Assembly (NCBI GenBank): GCA_002726945.1
Contig: PBTB01000106.1
Location: 1 to 37,314, forward strand
Direction: 5' to 3'
DNA length: 37,314 nucleotides
From: Deltaproteobacteria bacterium
Lineage (GTDB): Bacteria; SAR324; NAC60-12
Shown here: positions 7,082 through 16,147 of the stretch, one piece after another
Position numbering within the stretch: position 1 is the stretch's first letter
Layout: every line of letters starts with the position of its first letter
The notes under the pieces: generated by a model
Databases searched by the model: none
Told to the model about the DNA's origin: nothing
Seen by the model: only the letters and a program-made list of their open reading frames with translations
Made by a program: the position numbers and the translations under genes

Positions 7082-8047
7082 TCACTCGGAGGAAGCCTGC
7101 TTGATGGTGATGCGGGCGGACTGCCGGAGTTCAGTGAGGTAGGCTTGGATCGCTCCGGTCCGTTTTTGCTGGTACACGGAATTGGCGAGCGCGTCCGATT
7201 GCTCGGCGGAGAGGTTCGCACAATCCGGAGCGTTGGGAAACGCCTCTTCGGTGATGAAGAGGACATGGAAGCCAAACTGGGATTGCACCAGTTCGCTGGG
7301 TTGCGCCACCGGAAGGGTAAACGCCGCTTGGTCAATCGCAGGGAGCAGTTGCCCCTGCTGGAATTTTCCGAGTACCCCACCATTTTTTTTCGCTCCAGGA
7401 TCGTCAGAAACCTCACGGGCGATGGCGGAAAACGCCTTGCCTGCCGTAAGGGCAGTGCGTACTTCCTGTGCCCGGTTTTGCGCCTCCGTTTCAGAAGTTC
7501 GGAAGAGAATCTGTGACAAGCTGATCTGCCGCAACGACTGCCGATGCGTCCGGCAGGCGGCCTGAATCTCGGTGCCCTCCACACGAATCTTCGAGTCCAC
7601 CTCGCGGGACAGGACCCGCTGCTTCTTGAGATCCTTGAGGATACGTGACTGCAACTCGCTTTCCGGCATCACCGTGAGCAGTTGCGGGTTGGATTCGGAA
7701 ATGCGGTCCAATTGCGCATCCACCTCCTTGTTGGAAATTTCAATCTTCAGGACACGAGCGCGGTCGAGCAGCAGCAGTTCCTGGATGAGGCTGTCCACAG
7801 TGGTGCGGTCCACTTCGGCAAACTCGCGGTCGCGTTCCGGACCTTCCGGAATCGCTTGCTGAATCTGCGCCTTGAGTGCATTCACGATGTCCTCGGCCTC
7901 GCTCTGGGTCATCATCTGGCTGTTGACGATGAGGAAGATCCGGTCAATCACCTGGGGGGCCGCCCCAACTTGGAGCGCGGGGAGTAGAAACGCCCCCAGC
8001 AAAAGCATCAGCAGGGGCCAAAATCTAGCGGGCATGGTCGAGCGCAA
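7082..8047 (-). CDS. SurA-like periplasmic peptidyl-prolyl isomerase/chaperone
   Basis: Signal peptide, IDRIFLIVNSQMMTQSEAEDIVNALK SurA_N-like segment, parvulin segment LSQILFRTSETEAQNRAQEVRTALTAGKAFSAIAREVSDDPGAKKNGGVLGKFQQGQLLPAIDQAAFTL...SQFGFHVLFI. Confidence 0.85.
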   Translation of the reverse strand: MRSTMPARFWPLLMLLLGAFLLPALQVGAAPQVIDRIFLIVNSQMMTQSEAEDIVNALKAQIQQAIPEGPERDREFAEVDRTTVDSLIQELLLLDRARVLKIEISNKEVDAQLDRISESNPQLLTVMPESELQSRILKDLKKQRVLSREVDSKIRVEGTEIQAACRTHRQSLRQISLSQILFRTSETEAQNRAQEVRTALTAGKAFSAIAREVSDDPGAKKNGGVLGKFQQGQLLPAIDQAAFTLPVAQPSELVQSQFGFHVLFITEEAFPNAPDCANLSAEQSDALANSVYQQKRTGAIQAYLTELRQSARITIKQASSE

Positions 8048-8867
8048 GTGAGGTCATCGTTTGGGAAAAGGGTTGCAGTTCTGTGCTTCGGGCAGTCACA
8101 GGAATGCGGTGCAGGTACTCCATCTTGGTGACGGTGACACGCTTGTGCAGCCTGCCGTCGAACAGGTATTCCGTGACTTGCGGGTACGCCTGTTTCTGGT
8201 AAGTCTTGAATTTTGAAAAGCGCACCTCCAACTGCCAAACCGTGCCGTCCGGGTGCTGGACTTCGCGGTGCAGCGAGTGCATCCGGAAGGTGATGGGCTG
8301 GATGAAGGCGTAGGCTCCGGATTCGGGATGGCCCACACGATACAGGGCGTGGCTGTCCTCAGTGAGTTGCAGGGTGACGTGGAATCCGGAAAGACCGTAC
8401 TCCCGGAGCGTTTGCTCACGGTTCTGGGAATCACGTCCCAGCAGTCGCAAGTACCACGGCGAGGTTTCGTGCCAGTCGAATCCGGGATGCAGGGCCGTGT
8501 CGGCGTAGTTGTCCTTGTACTCAAGGTGAATGTGCAGTCGCTTCTGGAATCCCAGGGATTCCACGATGATGGCCTCGTCAGCTTTCCAGTGAATGCGCTG
8601 GCGGTAGCGGCGGTCAGGCCGCTCCACCGGATGCAGCTTGCCCTTGGCGTCCGCAACCGCTTGCAGTGGATCAAACACCTGCACCTCGGTTTCAAGGTAG
8701 ATACGCCACCAGTTGACGTGTTGATTCATTTGAAACTGGAGGTCTTCCCACGCAAGTGGTGACGTTGCGGCATGACCGGAAGCGGTGACCAGCAGCCCGG
8801 TTCCACAGAAGAGGAGAAGCCTCGACAGGCAGCGGGGAATCCGAAAAAGTGGCAAACGGCTTTTCAT
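8025..8867 (-). CDS. Secreted hypothetical protein
   Basis: Signal peptide; overlaps the start of the surA-like gene by 23 nt; no family recognised. Confidence 0.55.
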   Translation of the reverse strand: MKSRLPLFRIPRCLSRLLLFCGTGLLVTASGHAATSPLAWEDLQFQMNQHVNWWRIYLETEVQVFDPLQAVADAKGKLHPVERPDRRYRQRIHWKADEAIIVESLGFQKRLHIHLEYKDNYADTALHPGFDWHETSPWYLRLLGRDSQNREQTLREYGLSGFHVTLQLTEDSHALYRVGHPESGAYAFIQPITFRMHSLHREVQHPDGTVWQLEVRFSKFKTYQKQAYPQVTEYLFDGRLHKRVTVTKMEYLHRIPVTARSTELQPFSQTMTSLALDHAR

Positions 8868-9320: not shown

Positions 9321-9917
9321 GTGGTGAGAAATTTAGTTTTAACAATCATTTTTGTGTTATTCAGCAGTTGCAGTGCTTTTGCGGAGACTTGGGATTTTGG
9401 GATAGGCCTTCCTTTTTATTCAGGAAGAATGAAAAATTATCATCCACTGCAATTGGAAATTGGAGTGGCAAGTGTGAAAGGTTATGGCATTAATTCCAGT
9501 ATACAATCGGTAAAGAGTCACAAAGTTTCAGGGTTTACAGGAAAATTAAAATGGACAAGTTTCGATATTCATATTTTTTACAGATTTGAAAAGTACGTGC
9601 ATAGATGGGATGTTGGAGTAATGACCAATTTAAATAAATATTATGGACAAATTAATGAGATCGAATTCAATAAAAATATTACATACATTGGTCCCATGAT
9701 ACAGTATTCTACTACAATCAAAGGCTATGATCGTGAAGACGCGTATTATGGAGTCCGTATTTTTGCTTTGTCCACAAGTGAAATCAACACTCATTCATTT
9801 GACCTGACGGATGACACTACATTTCAATCTGAACATGAAAATTATAAAAGTTATATCAAAAATAATAACCCTGCATTAACTGTTGGATTGAACTTTACCA
9901 TAGGTTTTAGATTATGA
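9321..9917 (+). CDS. Secreted, probable small outer-membrane beta-barrel protein
   Basis: GTG start, signal peptide (LVLTIIFVLFSSCSAFAETWDF), alternating aromatic/polar segments, terminal TVGLNFTIGFRL consistent with a beta-barrel C-terminus. Confidence 0.5.
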   Translation: MVRNLVLTIIFVLFSSCSAFAETWDFGIGLPFYSGRMKNYHPLQLEIGVASVKGYGINSSIQSVKSHKVSGFTGKLKWTSFDIHIFYRFEKYVHRWDVGVMTNLNKYYGQINEIEFNKNITYIGPMIQYSTTIKGYDREDAYYGVRIFALSTSEINTHSFDLTDDTTFQSEHENYKSYIKNNNPALTVGLNFTIGFRL

Positions 9918-10483
9918 AGAAACTGTTTTTTGTTCTCATGTTTATTTCAATAGCTGGCTGTTCCACACAAAAATTCACAAGAATTGAAGAAGGGGGAAAA
10001 AAGGAAATCGTTATCGGTAAAAATTACAGTGTCATCTATTGTGAATGTGAAAAAAACGAACTGCTGAACGAATTATTAGGGAAGTTGAGAGCAAGGGGGT
10101 TTCAAATTATTAAAGTCAATTCGTTTGAAGACATGAATGTCGTGAAAACAGAAAAAAACATAGTGCTTTACGGCTACAGTAAAAAGGTGCAAGGTGACAC
10201 AAAAAAATATACAACCACAAACCTTGTCAGCAGAAATGAAACTTATGACTGTGGCAAAGGGTGCAGTGTCCGTCGACGCTGGAATGAACTTGTTGTTAAT
10301 ACTGTAACCACTCCTAGTGTTTCACGAAACAACAGCGTCTTAATCTATAAAATAGATGATGCAACAGAATTGTTAATGGCCATCACTTCTGGAGATAAGT
10401 ATTCTTTGAATTTATCAACCAAAGAAGAGACAGGAAGCACGCTCAACGTCATCTCAGAAACCAAAGCATATGTCATCAAATAA
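9914..10483 (+). CDS. Uncharacterised lipoprotein
   Basis: Lipobox SIAGC; ATGA overlap with the upstream stop codon; internal YDCGKGC. Confidence 0.6.
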   Translation: MKKLFFVLMFISIAGCSTQKFTRIEEGGKKEIVIGKNYSVIYCECEKNELLNELLGKLRARGFQIIKVNSFEDMNVVKTEKNIVLYGYSKKVQGDTKKYTTTNLVSRNETYDCGKGCSVRRRWNELVVNTVTTPSVSRNNSVLIYKIDDATELLMAITSGDKYSLNLSTKEETGSTLNVISETKAYVIK

Positions 10484-11501
10484 GTTCATTGTTTTTTTAT
10501 ATGCAGTGTCTGCCTCAATCATGCTTCATGGTTGTGCAGACAGGCATCTCCTACAGCTAGAAAGAAAAATCACCAACGACTCTAAGTTCAACAAAACTGA
10601 AACGGTGGTTGTTGATTTGGAATTCAGTGAAATAGATTACTCTGAAAGAATAGTTTCGTTACATTCCAATAGAGTTTTCAAAAAAGGAGCCTTGCCGCAA
10701 AACAAGAAAATTATAATTGACGCTTTAAGTGAATCGTTATCCTTTGATGGAAAATCAGTATTTTCGCTGGAAGAATATCAACGGATTAAAAAAGACTTAA
10801 GAAAAATCAGACCTGCCGCAGGTTATAAAGATCCAAAACCAGATGCGTTAATTCGCTTAAAAGTCTCCTACAGCATCCAAACGGGGAGATATGAGAAAGA
10901 AAGGGTGTATAGTTTTTACAGAAAGGAAACACGTTGTCGATACTTAAAAAAACCGCCAAAAAAATATAAACCCTGCCGAGATACAGAAAACTCCACTTGG
11001 GATGAAATCAGATTAGACCGGAACGCATCAGGGGTAGTTGACCTGTGGTATTCTGGTGATGTCTATCTAAATGAAAATGACCAATATATTCATCATAGAA
11101 GCCTCAATGGCTATCAATCAATAACAACACTTTATCAAGATGAAAAAGTTTTGAATCAAAGTATTGCAGCGGGACTTGGCCTAATCATTAGCAATAACCT
11201 GGGAACAGTGGACTTGGCAGTCAGGTTGGAAATTGATGAAGGAAATCATAATGAGGCAATAGAGTGGTTAAAACGAGGCGAAATTGAAGTTGCCAGAAAA
11301 ATTCTGGAAAAAGATGTTACCGAAAATATGTTTGAATCATCAACTGATTATTACAATCTGGGATTAATTTACCATATCTATGGAGATTTTGAGATTGCAA
11401 GAGAATACTATGCAAAAGCCATCAATGCAGGGGGTTATAAAAGAATGTATGTTGAAGCTCTTCAAAACATCAAGGTGTTGAATGAAAAAAGTACGCTGTA
11501 A
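10470..11501 (+). CDS. Uncharacterised lipoprotein with C-terminal TPR-like repeat
   Basis: Lipobox-like MLHGC; C-terminal YYNLGLIYHIYGDFEIAREYYAKAI TPR-like helix pair; overlaps upstream gene by 14 nt. Confidence 0.6.
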   Translation: MSSNKFIVFLYAVSASIMLHGCADRHLLQLERKITNDSKFNKTETVVVDLEFSEIDYSERIVSLHSNRVFKKGALPQNKKIIIDALSESLSFDGKSVFSLEEYQRIKKDLRKIRPAAGYKDPKPDALIRLKVSYSIQTGRYEKERVYSFYRKETRCRYLKKPPKKYKPCRDTENSTWDEIRLDRNASGVVDLWYSGDVYLNENDQYIHHRSLNGYQSITTLYQDEKVLNQSIAAGLGLIISNNLGTVDLAVRLEIDEGNHNEAIEWLKRGEIEVARKILEKDVTENMFESSTDYYNLGLIYHIYGDFEIAREYYAKAINAGGYKRMYVEALQNIKVLNEKSTL

Positions 11502-12363
11502 GGCTTGGTACCTGGTGGTGTCAATATTAATTTTTGGGTGCAGTTCTTTCTCTTCAAAAAAAACCTTTACAATCACCTATTTTACACCACCGAAAAAAAT
11601 GTTGACAAACAAGCCAATTTTGGTGAGCAATTCAACTGGAGATGGCTATCACTTGAAAAATATTTTAACTGAATTGTTGATGAACAGTGGTTATGAGGTC
11701 ATACAAGATGTCAACAGCACGGGAAAACTCATTGCACCATTTGGCATTGACCAAGCTGTTCCCACCAAGGATGTCACAGAAATCACAGTCTCGTTGGAAC
11801 TGGAAAAAACGAATGAGACTTCCAGACAAATTTCTGAAAAAATCACTTTAACTAGCTGTAATTATCTGCGAGAGAAAAATCCGTGTTCATCAAGATCTGG
11901 AATCGTGAGGAGCTTCCAAACAACCCTAAGTAAAAAAGGACAAGCAAAGATCAGGATTAAAGATTCAGGCAAGGAAACAATAACCATTGAATTCCCAATA
12001 AATGTAAAAACCGCTGGCCTACTACCAGGGGGCACGAACATACCCCTAACTCAAGCTATACAAAATATTTTAAGAAAGACGTTTGCTCCATACTTAAAGA
12101 GTCTTGTACAAGAGCAATCCACTTTTGAAATTGATAAAATGGCTGCTGATTTCATAGACAGTGGACTTTTTGAGGTTGCAAAATTACGAGTTCAGGGTCA
12201 TGAGAGTGGAGTTGGATACTACTTGACAATGGGATATATTGAAGAAAAACAAGGCAATCTATCCGGCGCAAATATGTATTATCAAGAAGGCGAAGTCAGT
12301 ACCAGCGAAAATGAATTATTTAAAAAATCAATCGAAAGAATAAATTTTTTATTGCAGCAGTGA
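11482..12363 (+). CDS. Uncharacterised lipoprotein, apparent paralog of the preceding gene
   Basis: Lipobox LIFGC; CNYLREKNPC motif; C-terminal YYLTMGYIEEKQGNLSGANMYYQEG TPR-like segment; overlaps upstream gene by 20 nt. Confidence 0.6.
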   Translation: MKKVRCKAWYLVVSILIFGCSSFSSKKTFTITYFTPPKKMLTNKPILVSNSTGDGYHLKNILTELLMNSGYEVIQDVNSTGKLIAPFGIDQAVPTKDVTEITVSLELEKTNETSRQISEKITLTSCNYLREKNPCSSRSGIVRSFQTTLSKKGQAKIRIKDSGKETITIEFPINVKTAGLLPGGTNIPLTQAIQNILRKTFAPYLKSLVQEQSTFEIDKMAADFIDSGLFEVAKLRVQGHESGVGYYLTMGYIEEKQGNLSGANMYYQEGEVSTSENELFKKSIERINFLLQQ

Positions 12364-12509
12364 AACGCTTTCGATTTTATCACTTCGTGTTGATGGATGG
12401 TGTAGCACGTTACTCTGGACGAGTTTTTAAAGAAGAGCACGGAGATCAGAGTCAATTTGACATCAGAACAATCGAATGGAAAAGTTCTGTACAGAATCAA
12501 TGAAGCAAT

Positions 12510-12635
12510 TGATAACTGATGTTACGCACTCGGATTTTAACTCATTGAAATCATTGTGGTTTTTAAATCGATCAAAATTATCACCATCAATAAAATCAAT
12601 AACTTACGCAGGGGACTGCGTAACATCAGTTGATA
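12510..12635. mobile_element. MITE-like non-autonomous insertion with target-site duplication
   Basis: Perfect terminal inverted repeats ACTGATGTTACGCA (12515-12528) and TGCGTAACATCAGT (12617-12630), flanked by TGATA direct repeats (12510-12514 and 12631-12635); AT-rich non-coding core. Confidence 0.75.
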
Positions 12636-12740
12636 AATGACTTGCTATTCAAGAAAAGGGACGTTAGACTGCTTGCAGTGATTCTCTTTTCGGGAAGATC
12701 ATGACTTCGTATTTTTCGAACCCTAACTCATACAGGAATT

Positions 12741-14117
12741 ATGTTTAAAATTCTTTCGCGGATCTTGGCCCACGTCCTTTTCGTTGTGCTACTGGTGGGC
12801 TGTGCTTCCGCACCTCAACCAAAATCCAAGCCCAAGGCCGAAAATTTTCTAACCCTCGCAGATGTCAACGGTCAAATCTCGTTTAAGGAAAACAATAACA
12901 CTCCTGACATTCGAGTGATTCGTGCCAAGGCTAAAGCATTCATCAAGCAAAACGACCTGCGCTCAGCCAAGATACTTGCAACTAATCAAGCCACTAGTTA
13001 TGCCGTGGATGACATGGTTCGGGAATTACTGACCGAGGAGATTTACAACAACAATTTTGAAAAAATCGAAGAGTACCTTTCTAAAAATTTAGACAGTTAT
13101 GTCGTTGATAAGGAGGTTGTGGCCGAGAAGCGTATCTTTGCGAACAAGTATTATGGCATTGACACTGCCTTTAAAATAAGTCGCCAGAAAGTCCTTGTTG
13201 CTTTGCAAAAGGATCTCAAGCTCATCAACACCAGTTCAAGCACGTTAGTGGTCGTGATTACCAGTAAAAAAGGCATTGACCTGTCAGGGTCAGGGTTTCA
13301 GTTTGGCGACTTGGAGGACGCGTTGATGAACCAGATTCAAACCGACCTGAACCAGCGAGGATTGCGAGCAATGGACTTTCGGAATGCGATCACTCACTTG
13401 CAGAGCGATGCAAAAACAAAAGAACAGTTTGGAAAAATATCAAAAGAACAGTTTCTTGCGGTAGTCTCTGGAAGTCCAGCAGACCGTGCATTGCTCAACA
13501 AGCAGATTCAGGAAGCAGAGGGGTTCTATACAACCGGTCTGAGTCTGCTGCAGCAACTGGCAAAGGTGGTGGTTGAGGTCAATATCTTTTCAATCAGTGG
13601 AAACACGAAGGGGGATCTCGCTCTTTCCCTCAACGTCACAGCGAAAAACATTTCCACAGGACGGGGCGGGGCGTTTGCAAACACAGTCACCAATGTTGCT
13701 CGACGAGGCGGCCCCAACGTCATTCCGTCAGCAATGATCACCGGCCTGGTCCAAGACACCTACCAAGACCTAAAGCGTGAATTCATCCCTCAGGTTATCA
13801 AGGAGATGTCCACAATCACTGTGGGGGGGGACAAACTGATGCCTTATGAAATTGTCTTAAAAGGCTTCGACAGTCGCAACGTTCGCAGATTCAGATCTGC
13901 CTTGGATCAGAGACAAAATGATCAATTCAGATACATTGACTACGACAATACACTGGCAGGAACTCAGCCTTCGATTGTGACCATTCGTGTGCGTTACGCA
14001 GGAAAGCCCGACCGCTTGGCGGATCTGCTGATGGGTATTCTTGATGGACAACAGATTGACTTCAAGGAACCCCGTGTCGCTCCAGAGCTCAAGGATATTG
14101 TCATTGAACACCAGTGA
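12741..14117 (+). CDS. Large uncharacterised lipoprotein
   Basis: Lipobox VLLVGC; 458 aa; no firmly recognised domain. The C-terminal MPYEIVLKGFDSRNVRRFRSALD...VTIRVRYAGKPDRLADLLMGI segment is loosely like envelope assembly lipoproteins. Confidence 0.65.
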   Translation: MFKILSRILAHVLFVVLLVGCASAPQPKSKPKAENFLTLADVNGQISFKENNNTPDIRVIRAKAKAFIKQNDLRSAKILATNQATSYAVDDMVRELLTEEIYNNNFEKIEEYLSKNLDSYVVDKEVVAEKRIFANKYYGIDTAFKISRQKVLVALQKDLKLINTSSSTLVVVITSKKGIDLSGSGFQFGDLEDALMNQIQTDLNQRGLRAMDFRNAITHLQSDAKTKEQFGKISKEQFLAVVSGSPADRALLNKQIQEAEGFYTTGLSLLQQLAKVVVEVNIFSISGNTKGDLALSLNVTAKNISTGRGGAFANTVTNVARRGGPNVIPSAMITGLVQDTYQDLKREFIPQVIKEMSTITVGGDKLMPYEIVLKGFDSRNVRRFRSALDQRQNDQFRYIDYDNTLAGTQPSIVTIRVRYAGKPDRLADLLMGILDGQQIDFKEPRVAPELKDIVIEHQ

Positions 14118-14134
14118 ATTATTGGAGAACAAAT

Positions 14135-15001
14135 ATGAAGATTCCAATCAGGATTCTGTTGGCCGCGATTGCATTCCTCTTCATAGGAATTGGAGGCTGC
14201 ACAAAGACCATTGAGGATGCCGAGTCGCTTTACCGCAACGGGCAGGAAGAAGAGGCGTTGGATGCTGTCGAAAAATTAATGGAGCATGAAGACCCCAAAG
14301 TGCGGCAGCGAGCGGTTCGGATTGCTGGAAAGGTCGGTAACGACCGCGCCGGCAAGCTCCTAGTCCTTGCGTTGCGGGATGCCAGCCCCGTGGTGCAGGC
14401 TGAAGCCGTGCGGGGGCTCGGCGCCAATGTCTATGAACCCGGCATCCAGCCACTGCTCGAAATGCTTCCTAAGGCAGACCCTGATGTGATACAGGCGGCG
14501 GGAGGGGCTTTGGCCAGTTATGGTGCTGCCGCACTCGATAAACTGGTGCAGCTCTACACGACTCCTTCACAGAAATCCAATCGAGGTGTGTACAGGCAAG
14601 TCCTGCTTCAAGTAGGCGCACCTGCTTCAGAAGCTTTGATTGCCACCTTGAAGGGCAGATCGTTCTTTGAAAACCGGGACACCTTCATGCTGCTCAAGCA
14701 AATGCGCAATCCGAAGGTCGCAACTCTGATGCTCCCTTATTTGGAAGACGAAGAGGTCGCCGGGCAGGTAGCGGAAGCCATTGGACGCCTTGGCAGTATG
14801 GGCGTCAGCCCGACACTGGACAGTATCAAAGGCTACAAGAATGACCCTGCGGATGTTCGTGTGCTGGAGTTGCACATTCGCATTCTTGGAAAATTGAAAG
14901 ATGTCCGCGCTGCTGAAACATTGGAAGCCCTCGCAACACATCCTAGCGAGCGCATCCGCGATGCCGTGGACCGCGCGCTCTTCCAGATTCGCGGCTACTG
15001 A
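14135..15001 (+). CDS. HEAT-repeat lipoprotein
   Basis: Lipobox FIGIGGC; repeated helical units (DPKVRQRAVRIAGKVGNDRAGKLLVLALRDASPVVQAEAVRGLG...). Confidence 0.8.
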   Translation: MKIPIRILLAAIAFLFIGIGGCTKTIEDAESLYRNGQEEEALDAVEKLMEHEDPKVRQRAVRIAGKVGNDRAGKLLVLALRDASPVVQAEAVRGLGANVYEPGIQPLLEMLPKADPDVIQAAGGALASYGAAALDKLVQLYTTPSQKSNRGVYRQVLLQVGAPASEALIATLKGRSFFENRDTFMLLKQMRNPKVATLMLPYLEDEEVAGQVAEAIGRLGSMGVSPTLDSIKGYKNDPADVRVLELHIRILGKLKDVRAAETLEALATHPSERIRDAVDRALFQIRGY

Positions 15002-15010
15002 TTTGCAGCA

Positions 15011-16147
15011 TCACATCCGGTAGGGCGGGAGTCCGGCACTGTCCGGACCTGCCCAGCCGCGTCGGGCGGACCACTCCTGCACCCACGCCGCTCCTCGGTC
15101 CAGCCAGCGATCCACCCGGTTTTTCCCGCTTTCCGTGCGGACCTCCACCACCTCGTGCCCGTCCTCCTGCTTTGCGTAGAGGTAGTCATCGCTCGTCTGC
15201 AACTCATCCACCAACCCCAGTTCCAAGGCTTTTGAGGCCAGCCAGTACTCTCCGGTCGCAATCGTGTCCAAGTCCACCCCCGGACGGTGTTCCTGAATCA
15301 ACCTCTTGAACGCACCGTGGATCGCTTCCAGGTCCGCCTGGAATTTCTCGCGTCCTTCCTCGGTGATTTCCGCAAGCGGTGTGACGGTGCGCTTGTGCTT
15401 TCCGGCGGTGAAGAGGTGATAATCCACCTCGTTCTTCTGGAGAACACGGTGGAAATTCGGAATGCCTGCGACCACACCGATGGAGCCAACGAACGCAAAG
15501 GGTGCGGCCACGATGCGATCCGCAACGGTGGCCATCATGTAACCGCCGCTGGCGGCAATGACATCCACACAAACCGTGCAGCGCAGCCCCGCCTGCCTGA
15601 GCCGAGCGAGTTGCGAACTGGCGAGTCCGTACTGTGCGACCGCTCCCCCTGGACTGCTGAGCCGTACCACCACCTCGTCTGAAGGCAAAGCGGCTCCAAG
15701 CAAAAAGGTGATCTCGTCCCGGAGTTGTTCCACCGAAGACGCGAGGATGTTGCCCTCAAAATCCAGCACATAGATGCGGTTTGAGTGCCCCTTGACGATT
15801 TCCTCCACCGACTTGCCCGCCTTCAGGTTGGCCCGGATGGACGTCACCGTTTGCTCGTCCTTGGACTTTTCTTTCTTCTTTTCGACCTTACCCTCCTTGC
15901 GCCGAGCCTTGCGCAACAGCTTGATTGCGCTCTTGGACAGGGCCGGATGCTCGATCAGCGTTTTTTCCAATTCTTCTCCGGCTTGTTCAAAGCGTTTGCT
16001 CCAGCGCCGGAAGGCCAAATGCGGCTCCTTCTCCCCGGACATGCGCTTGCGCAACAAAACCCGCAGCAGGATGATCAATCCGGCAATGCCAAAGAGCAGG
16101 ACGGAAACGTGGTAAAAGCTGAGGAACTCGTTGAGAAATTCGGTCAT
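15011..16147 (-). CDS. sohB: SohB-like inner-membrane S49 protease
   Basis: LRDEITFLL...VVVRLSSPGGAVAQYGLASSQL...VDVIAASGGYMMATVADRIVAAPFAFVGSIGVVAGIPNFHRVLQKNEVDYHLFTAGKHKRTVTPLAEITEEGREKFQADLEAIH. Confidence 0.92.
   Translation of the reverse strand: MTEFLNEFLSFYHVSVLLFGIAGLIILLRVLLRKRMSGEKEPHLAFRRWSKRFEQAGEELEKTLIEHPALSKSAIKLLRKARRKEGKVEKKKEKSKDEQTVTSIRANLKAGKSVEEIVKGHSNRIYVLDFEGNILASSVEQLRDEITFLLGAALPSDEVVVRLSSPGGAVAQYGLASSQLARLRQAGLRCTVCVDVIAASGGYMMATVADRIVAAPFAFVGSIGVVAGIPNFHRVLQKNEVDYHLFTAGKHKRTVTPLAEITEEGREKFQADLEAIHGAFKRLIQEHRPGVDLDTIATGEYWLASKALELGLVDELQTSDDYLYAKQEDGHEVVEVRTESGKNRVDRWLDRGAAWVQEWSARRGWAGPDSAGLPPYRM

Follow-up and report, generated by a model that had tools for sequence, protein, structure and literature searches.

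Among described envelope systems, those closest to the proteins treated here involve FlgT, HpaA, CsgG and PelC. FlgT, which is exported without a lipid anchor, helps to build the Vibrio H ring. HpaA is a lipoprotein of Helicobacter pylori and, unlike the SAR324 lipoprotein with which it is compared below, has no TPR tail; we know of no case in which it forms an ordered unit of three paralogs, nor of any ring of the kind considered below built from HpaA or from GNA1162, another fold relative. CsgG, the lipoprotein channel of curli, differs from the same SAR324 protein, which has an added TPR tail. In the Pel system, twelve PelC lipoproteins form a ring that sits on PelB and has TPRs within it, and the structure has been solved (PMC12141448). 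The lipoprotein triad described here differs from that arrangement in that the TPR is fused to the lipoprotein itself and in that three unlike paralogs are present instead of one.

SAR324 bacteria (Ca. Lambdaproteobacteria) occur widely in the ocean and, to our knowledge, have not been cultured. Our literature search found no paper linking them to lipoproteins of this sort and no description of their envelope machinery; the phylum-level paper reports that SAR324 carries flagellar genes, and the word “lipoprotein” is absent from it (PMC9031357). The window, that is, the whole stretch of 37,314 nucleotides that was analysed, comes from a SAR324 genome of 2.6 Mb in 156 contigs, and the comparison sample comprised 52 SAR324 genomes from four families (f1–f4). 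Sequence comparison and structural models suggest that two modules of a single type of machine lie side by side in the region, namely a candidate envelope ring complex that has not been described before.

Layout of the region and its AT-rich insert

The features of the region are as follows.

7082–8047, minus strand: SurA/PpiC-type PPIase (Rotamase_3 3.8e-22, SurA_N_3 1.6e-6), a conserved neighbour of the next gene
8025–8867, minus strand: left border, exported protein of 280 residues, no family, conserved in nine relatives and divergently oriented from gene 5
9321–9917, plus strand: gene 1, protein of 198 residues with a Sec signal and no family, probable signal-peptidase I site AFA/ETW
9914–10483, plus strand: gene 2, lipoprotein of 189 residues at the position of triad member 1, of the short type and without TPR
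10470–11501, plus strand: gene 3, lipoprotein of 343 residues with a TPR tail, assigned by profile to triad member 2, short-type lineage
11482–12363, plus strand: gene 4, lipoprotein of 293 residues, assigned by profile to triad member 3, short-type lineage
12509–12636, no strand: MITE-like element without an ORF, 114 bp (12516–12629) with inverted ends
12741–14117, plus strand: gene 5, FlgT-like lipoprotein of 458 residues with LPP20/FlgT_N-like, CsgG/PelC/TolB_N-like and alpha/beta C-terminal regions
14114–15001, plus strand: gene 6, HEAT-repeat lipoprotein (HEAT_2 4.8e-24), constant partner of gene 5
15011–16147, minus strand: right border, SohB-like S49 peptidase (Peptidase_S49 1.3e-39), the same neighbour as in G003 and G009

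A preliminary description of this DNA had read genes 1–6 as a single operon-like run of one beta-barrel-like protein and five lipoproteins, possibly acquired at least in part horizontally. All six co-directional ORFs are present at the positions listed above, and the HEAT-repeat lipoprotein that it named is indeed gene 6. The overlaps at 9914/9917, 10470/10483 and 11482/11501 hold, whereas that at 14114/14117 needs a GTG start for gene 6; judged by its relatives, this gene probably starts at the ATG at 14135, which gives the length of 285–289 residues found in most of them and leaves a gap of 17 bp to gene 5. As for the five lipoboxes, genes 2, 4, 5 and 6 fit a PROSITE-like pattern, whereas that of gene 3 (MLHGC) is atypical; its Cys is conserved among triad orthologs, and the anchor Cys of gene 5 is invariant in all 20 rows of its alignment. 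Gene 1 loosely fits the lipobox pattern, and its AFA/ETW site resembles an ordinary signal-peptidase I site. One of the two TPR-like tails is clear, namely that of gene 3, whose best E of 4.7e-6 falls slightly short of the Pfam cut-off, whereas Pfam detected none in gene 4 itself and found it in the orthologs of gene 4. Beyond these repeats, Pfam and NCBIfam assigned genes 1–5 to no family, and an RNA-family search of the region returned none. The 280-residue border protein has no Pfam or PDB relative, and its reading as LolA-like was a guess that found no support.

The AT-richness of the first four genes was borne out (GC 0.34–0.37 against about 0.59). Their GC at third codon positions (GC3) is 0.29–0.38, compared with about 0.71 for the window, which places them 8–10 SD under the 19 other ORFs of the window, with gene 5 (0.53) and gene 6 (0.59) intermediate; as the drop affects third positions, it is compositional and goes beyond amino-acid content. 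The 280-residue gene lies −79 to 292 bp from gene 5 in nine relatives and 3873 bp from it in the window, where the interval holds genes 1–4 and the MITE-like repeat, and G003 and G009 show the order SurA, 280-residue gene, gene 5, gene 6, SohB, which is the order of the window minus genes 1–4. This short spacing and shared outer gene order indicate that genes 1–4 were inserted into a formerly short divergent promoter region. On composition and empty-site comparison, genes 1–4 are thus a late AT-rich insert ahead of a native gene 5–6 pair, in keeping with the partly horizontal acquisition proposed earlier. The six genes are not one unit, and a single operon is not supported: 377 bp with a repeat element separate genes 4 and 5, the insert has no counterpart in the short interval of the nine relatives, and genes 1–4 and genes 5–6 have different histories. 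We hold this anatomy, comprising the insert, the triad orthology of genes 3 and 4 described below and the native pair, with high confidence.

The MITE-like element occupies the right edge of the insert, in the 377-bp gap that separates gene 4 from gene 5. Its inverted repeats measure 18 nt, and it is flanked by a direct repeat, TTGATAA, read from the sequence at 12509–12515 and 12630–12636, which resembles a target duplication of 7 bp; the host genome has some nine additional near-full copies (88–98%) along with many fragments. An origin of the insert as phage or plasmid cargo was discarded after searches that reach close relatives only: genes 1 and 3 had no match in viral contigs, gene 2 had none in plasmids and PHROGs returned weak matches only.

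Gene 1 is possibly a small outer-membrane barrel, its sequence being beta-rich by eye. The one other trace of it in SAR324 is a partial match of 65 residues (37%, E 3.4e-4) in G013, where an ORF of 75 residues, weakly like part of gene 1, adjoins a tyrosine integrase (L130:100-1333).

The lipoprotein triad and the gene 5–6 pair

Genes 3 and 4 belong, by profile comparison and a tree of 47 proteins, to a triad of paralogous lipoproteins encoded in tandem, for which 24 complete loci from at least seven genera were found, always with three members in fixed order; two further loci are cut by contig ends. Two types can be distinguished. The long type has members of about 430, 380 and 410 residues, all with a TPR tail, and the short type has members of about 249, 380 and 320 residues, the first of which is without TPR. 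The triad proteins fall into six clean groups in which each position forms its own clade; for member 1 (97/96) and member 3 (86/85), the long-type and short-type proteins of a given position group together, and those of member 2 are neighbouring in the tree without being resolved as a single clade.

Against the short-type profiles, gene 3 matches member 2 (hhalign 98.7%, 304 columns) and gene 4 matches member 3 (97.5%, 275 columns), and the tree likewise places them with the short-type groups S2 (100/97) and S3 (100/98), respectively. Both lie external to the f1 and f3 sequences, and their branches are very long (2.7 and 2.5), which leaves their exact depth in the tree unsure. As judged from profiles and tree together, they are highly divergent triad members 2 and 3; a normal long triad, with a GC of about 0.6, is present in the host genome as well (L098). 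Gene 2 shares position and size class with the short-type member 1 and overlaps gene 3, and hhalign gives 29% against the long type of member 1 and 48% against both types combined, with 1–2 of 100 shuffles of its mature part scoring equally high; its homology to member 1 is weakly supported. A PorU-like assignment of gene 2 was rejected (E 0.0017, far under the cut-off), the match covering the signal peptide.

Full-length matches to the member 2 profiles occur in SAR324 families f1 and f3 only. In one f2 genome the match covers the TPR part only, candidate relatives outside SAR324 were rejected for the same reason, and the PDB sequence search with the triad returned TPR proteins only. The uncharacterised set of envelope lipoproteins that the preliminary description proposed is supported and has conserved synteny, which was found in SAR324 only and not in the unrelated genomes that it had named as support.

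Across f1 and f3, 29 SAR324 genomes carry gene 5 at full length, and three further fragments lie at contig edges. At every locus with flank available, gene 6 comes next in the same orientation (flank is missing or short in L060 and L061; in L051, gene 5 is masked by a longer ORF in simple ORF calling, though a separate search places it there). Gene 5 is part of the SAR324 core, and the gene 5–6 pair is native to the group. A PDB sequence search with gene 5 returned nothing.

If fragments at contig edges and a partial triad match in G027 are included, 28 genomes hold both triad and gene 5, four hold gene 5 only, two the triad only and 18 neither. The corresponding Fisher values (2.6e-8 for the 52 SAR324 genomes and 4e-4 within f1 and f3) are inflated by the relatedness of the genomes, and adjacency is perhaps the stronger evidence of association. 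A long triad directly follows gene 6 in G006, G046, G048, G049 and G050, and in the first of these a FecR-domain gene (L043:11518-12195) lies between gene 6 and the triad, overlapping the triad start. In G007, and in G025 beyond an intervening flavin-reductase gene, a short triad takes the place behind gene 6, and in the window the short-type genes lie upstream of gene 5. Rather than being scattered and never adjacent, which would have counted against the preliminary description, triads thus adjoin the pair in seven relatives and in the window; at eight further loci whose flank is long enough to tell, triad and pair are not neighbours.

Predicted folds, a candidate ring complex and its rivals

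The model of gene 5 (20-sequence alignment, pLDDT 76.0) shows an N-terminal domain of the order strand-helix-helix-strand-strand, followed by alpha/beta middle and C-terminal domains. When compared with the PDB by Foldseek, it matches FlgT best (8.3e-7 and 1.5e-6; PDB 3w1e and 8z5n), along most of the chain, followed by Chlamydia CT253, PelC (1.2e-4), CsgG (1.2e-4), GNA1162 and TolB. The model of triad member 2 (pLDDT 75.7) matches HpaA (3.5e-6), CsgG (7e-5), FlgT (2e-4) and, more weakly than gene 5 does, PelC (4.3e-4); it ends in TPR helices and contains a pair of 28-residue strands (135–162 and 172–199). These matches are significant by E-value and weak by whole-chain TM-score (0.2–0.3 of the query; 0.23–0.29 for gene 5 against FlgT), and model confidence is moderate; low TM-scores of this kind mean that the two models assign gene 5 and member 2 to a superfamily, not to a function. 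The earlier statement that no secretion, curli or flagellar component can be recognised therefore stands for sequence and needs amending for predicted folds, given that gene 5 resembles FlgT, PelC and CsgG and that the gene 3 family resembles HpaA and CsgG.

Starting from these models, and by analogy with described systems, the reading that we favour, at somewhat short of an even chance, is that the proteins are lipid-anchored subunits of a ring or collar lining the outer membrane on its periplasmic side. One module (A) would consist of genes 5 and 6, that is, the lipid-anchored FlgT-like protein and its HEAT-repeat lipoprotein partner, and the other (B) of genes 2–4, together with gene 1, a very divergent triad carried on the late insert, in which gene 2 would act as member 1. 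The triad family combines a predicted CsgG/HpaA-like domain with a short TPR tail (in members 2 and 3 and in the long-type member 1). All of these proteins would be lipidated and held, as we infer, at the outer membrane, facing the periplasm. Their domains of the ring superfamily would co-assemble, with the three triad members as the unlike subunits of one heteromeric ring or collar, which would dock on the FlgT-like/HEAT pair as a platform, with the TPR and HEAT parts pointing to the periplasm, where they may hold clients or a central structure. Such an arrangement would be analogous to PelC holding the TPR stalk of PelB, or to the part of FlgT in building the Vibrio H ring. A more specific version is a long shot: SAR324 of f1 and f3 would have their own outer-membrane machine, with three unlike TPR-bearing lipoproteins of the CsgG/PelC class on a FlgT-like/HEAT platform, which exports or anchors a surface structure not explained by any known system and has been duplicated and exchanged as a unit. 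In either form, a lineage-specific unit of three paralogs whose order is stable through deep divergence offers a concrete, testable target, and the case shows a possible re-use of the CsgG/PelC/FlgT ring superfamily.

Given that FlgT is the nearest fold to gene 5 and that FlgI occurs in 48 of the 52 SAR324 genomes, the proteins might instead be flagellar accessories, gene 5 acting as a FlgT with a lipid anchor and the triad making up H-ring-like or disk structures around the motor. We regard this as unlikely, and flagellar membership is not supported. The flagellated family f2 has FlgI in nine of its ten genomes and holds neither full-length gene 5 nor the triad, whereas G045 (88% complete) and G047 (68%) carry gene 5 and FlgI was not found in them. 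Gene 5 further differs from FlgT in being a lipoprotein with a HEAT lipoprotein partner and in lying outside flagellar clusters, no flagellar gene being recognised near triads or the gene 5–6 pair, and it has no direct Pfam FlgT match. Moreover, other SAR324 genomes encode a distinct FlgT_N protein adjoining a TPR lipoprotein. Three such proteins without a lipid anchor (378–394 residues) have a Pfam FlgT_N match, which exceeds the cut-off in two and narrowly misses it in one, and gene 5 matches them by profile over its full length (hhalign 96.8%, 336 columns), in line with its FlgT-like fold. The neighbour of the exported FlgT_N protein is a large TPR lipoprotein of 483–574 residues (L154:1227-3905, L155:535-3380, L157:2106-5029), at most a putative homologue of the triad; the FlgT_N protein may be the true FlgT of SAR324, or the two genes a variant of the gene 5–6 pairing.

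Rather unlikely, too, is an export apparatus, in which the triad would form a CsgG- or PelC-like outer-membrane channel or collar for a fibre or polysaccharide. Gene 5 and member 2 each have CsgG and PelC in their list of fold matches, the long strand pair of the member 2 model might enter the membrane, and gene 1 may be a small barrel. However, the Pfam CsgG family is matched neither by the window proteins nor by the triad members scanned, and in the neighbourhoods read no curli, Pel or other export partner was recognised, including csgA/B/E/F and the pel genes with PelB; judged by these neighbourhoods, the system is probably neither curli nor Pel.

It is improbable that the proteins are HpaA- or LipL41-like surface or periplasmic binding lipoproteins acting singly, with the triplication reflecting gene-family history alone. 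HpaA is the best fold match of the member 2 model and a weak LipL41 profile match was seen in gene 3, but the latter is confined to the TPR-like tail, and the strict order of three members over deep divergence, together with the linkage to genes 5–6, better fits a complex. Finally, a decaying or selfish insert functionally unconnected to genes 5–6, as low GC, very long branches, the MITE at its edge and a gene 1 trace beside an integrase in another genome might suggest, is very unlikely, as none of the four reading frames is interrupted, the genes overlap tightly and have signal peptides, and the insert adjoins the same pair that triads adjoin in other genera.

Other genes beside the triads and the pair

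The long triads of one genus (L091, L094, L095, L100 and L101) share a constant setting, with a DUF2851 gene upstream and a helix-turn-helix gene downstream (gene families were assigned at L091 alone). An ORF of 207 residues, with a GC of 0.54 in surroundings of 0.41, precedes the short triads of G025 (L044:10047-10670) and G017 (L084:378-1001) and is flavin-reductase-like in G025; these ORFs are possibly other inserts at the same junction. An M81 (MlrC-type) metallopeptidase gene is found behind gene 6 at one locus (L048:11801-13348, GC 0.42) and near a short triad at another (L086:6199-7686, GC 0.53).
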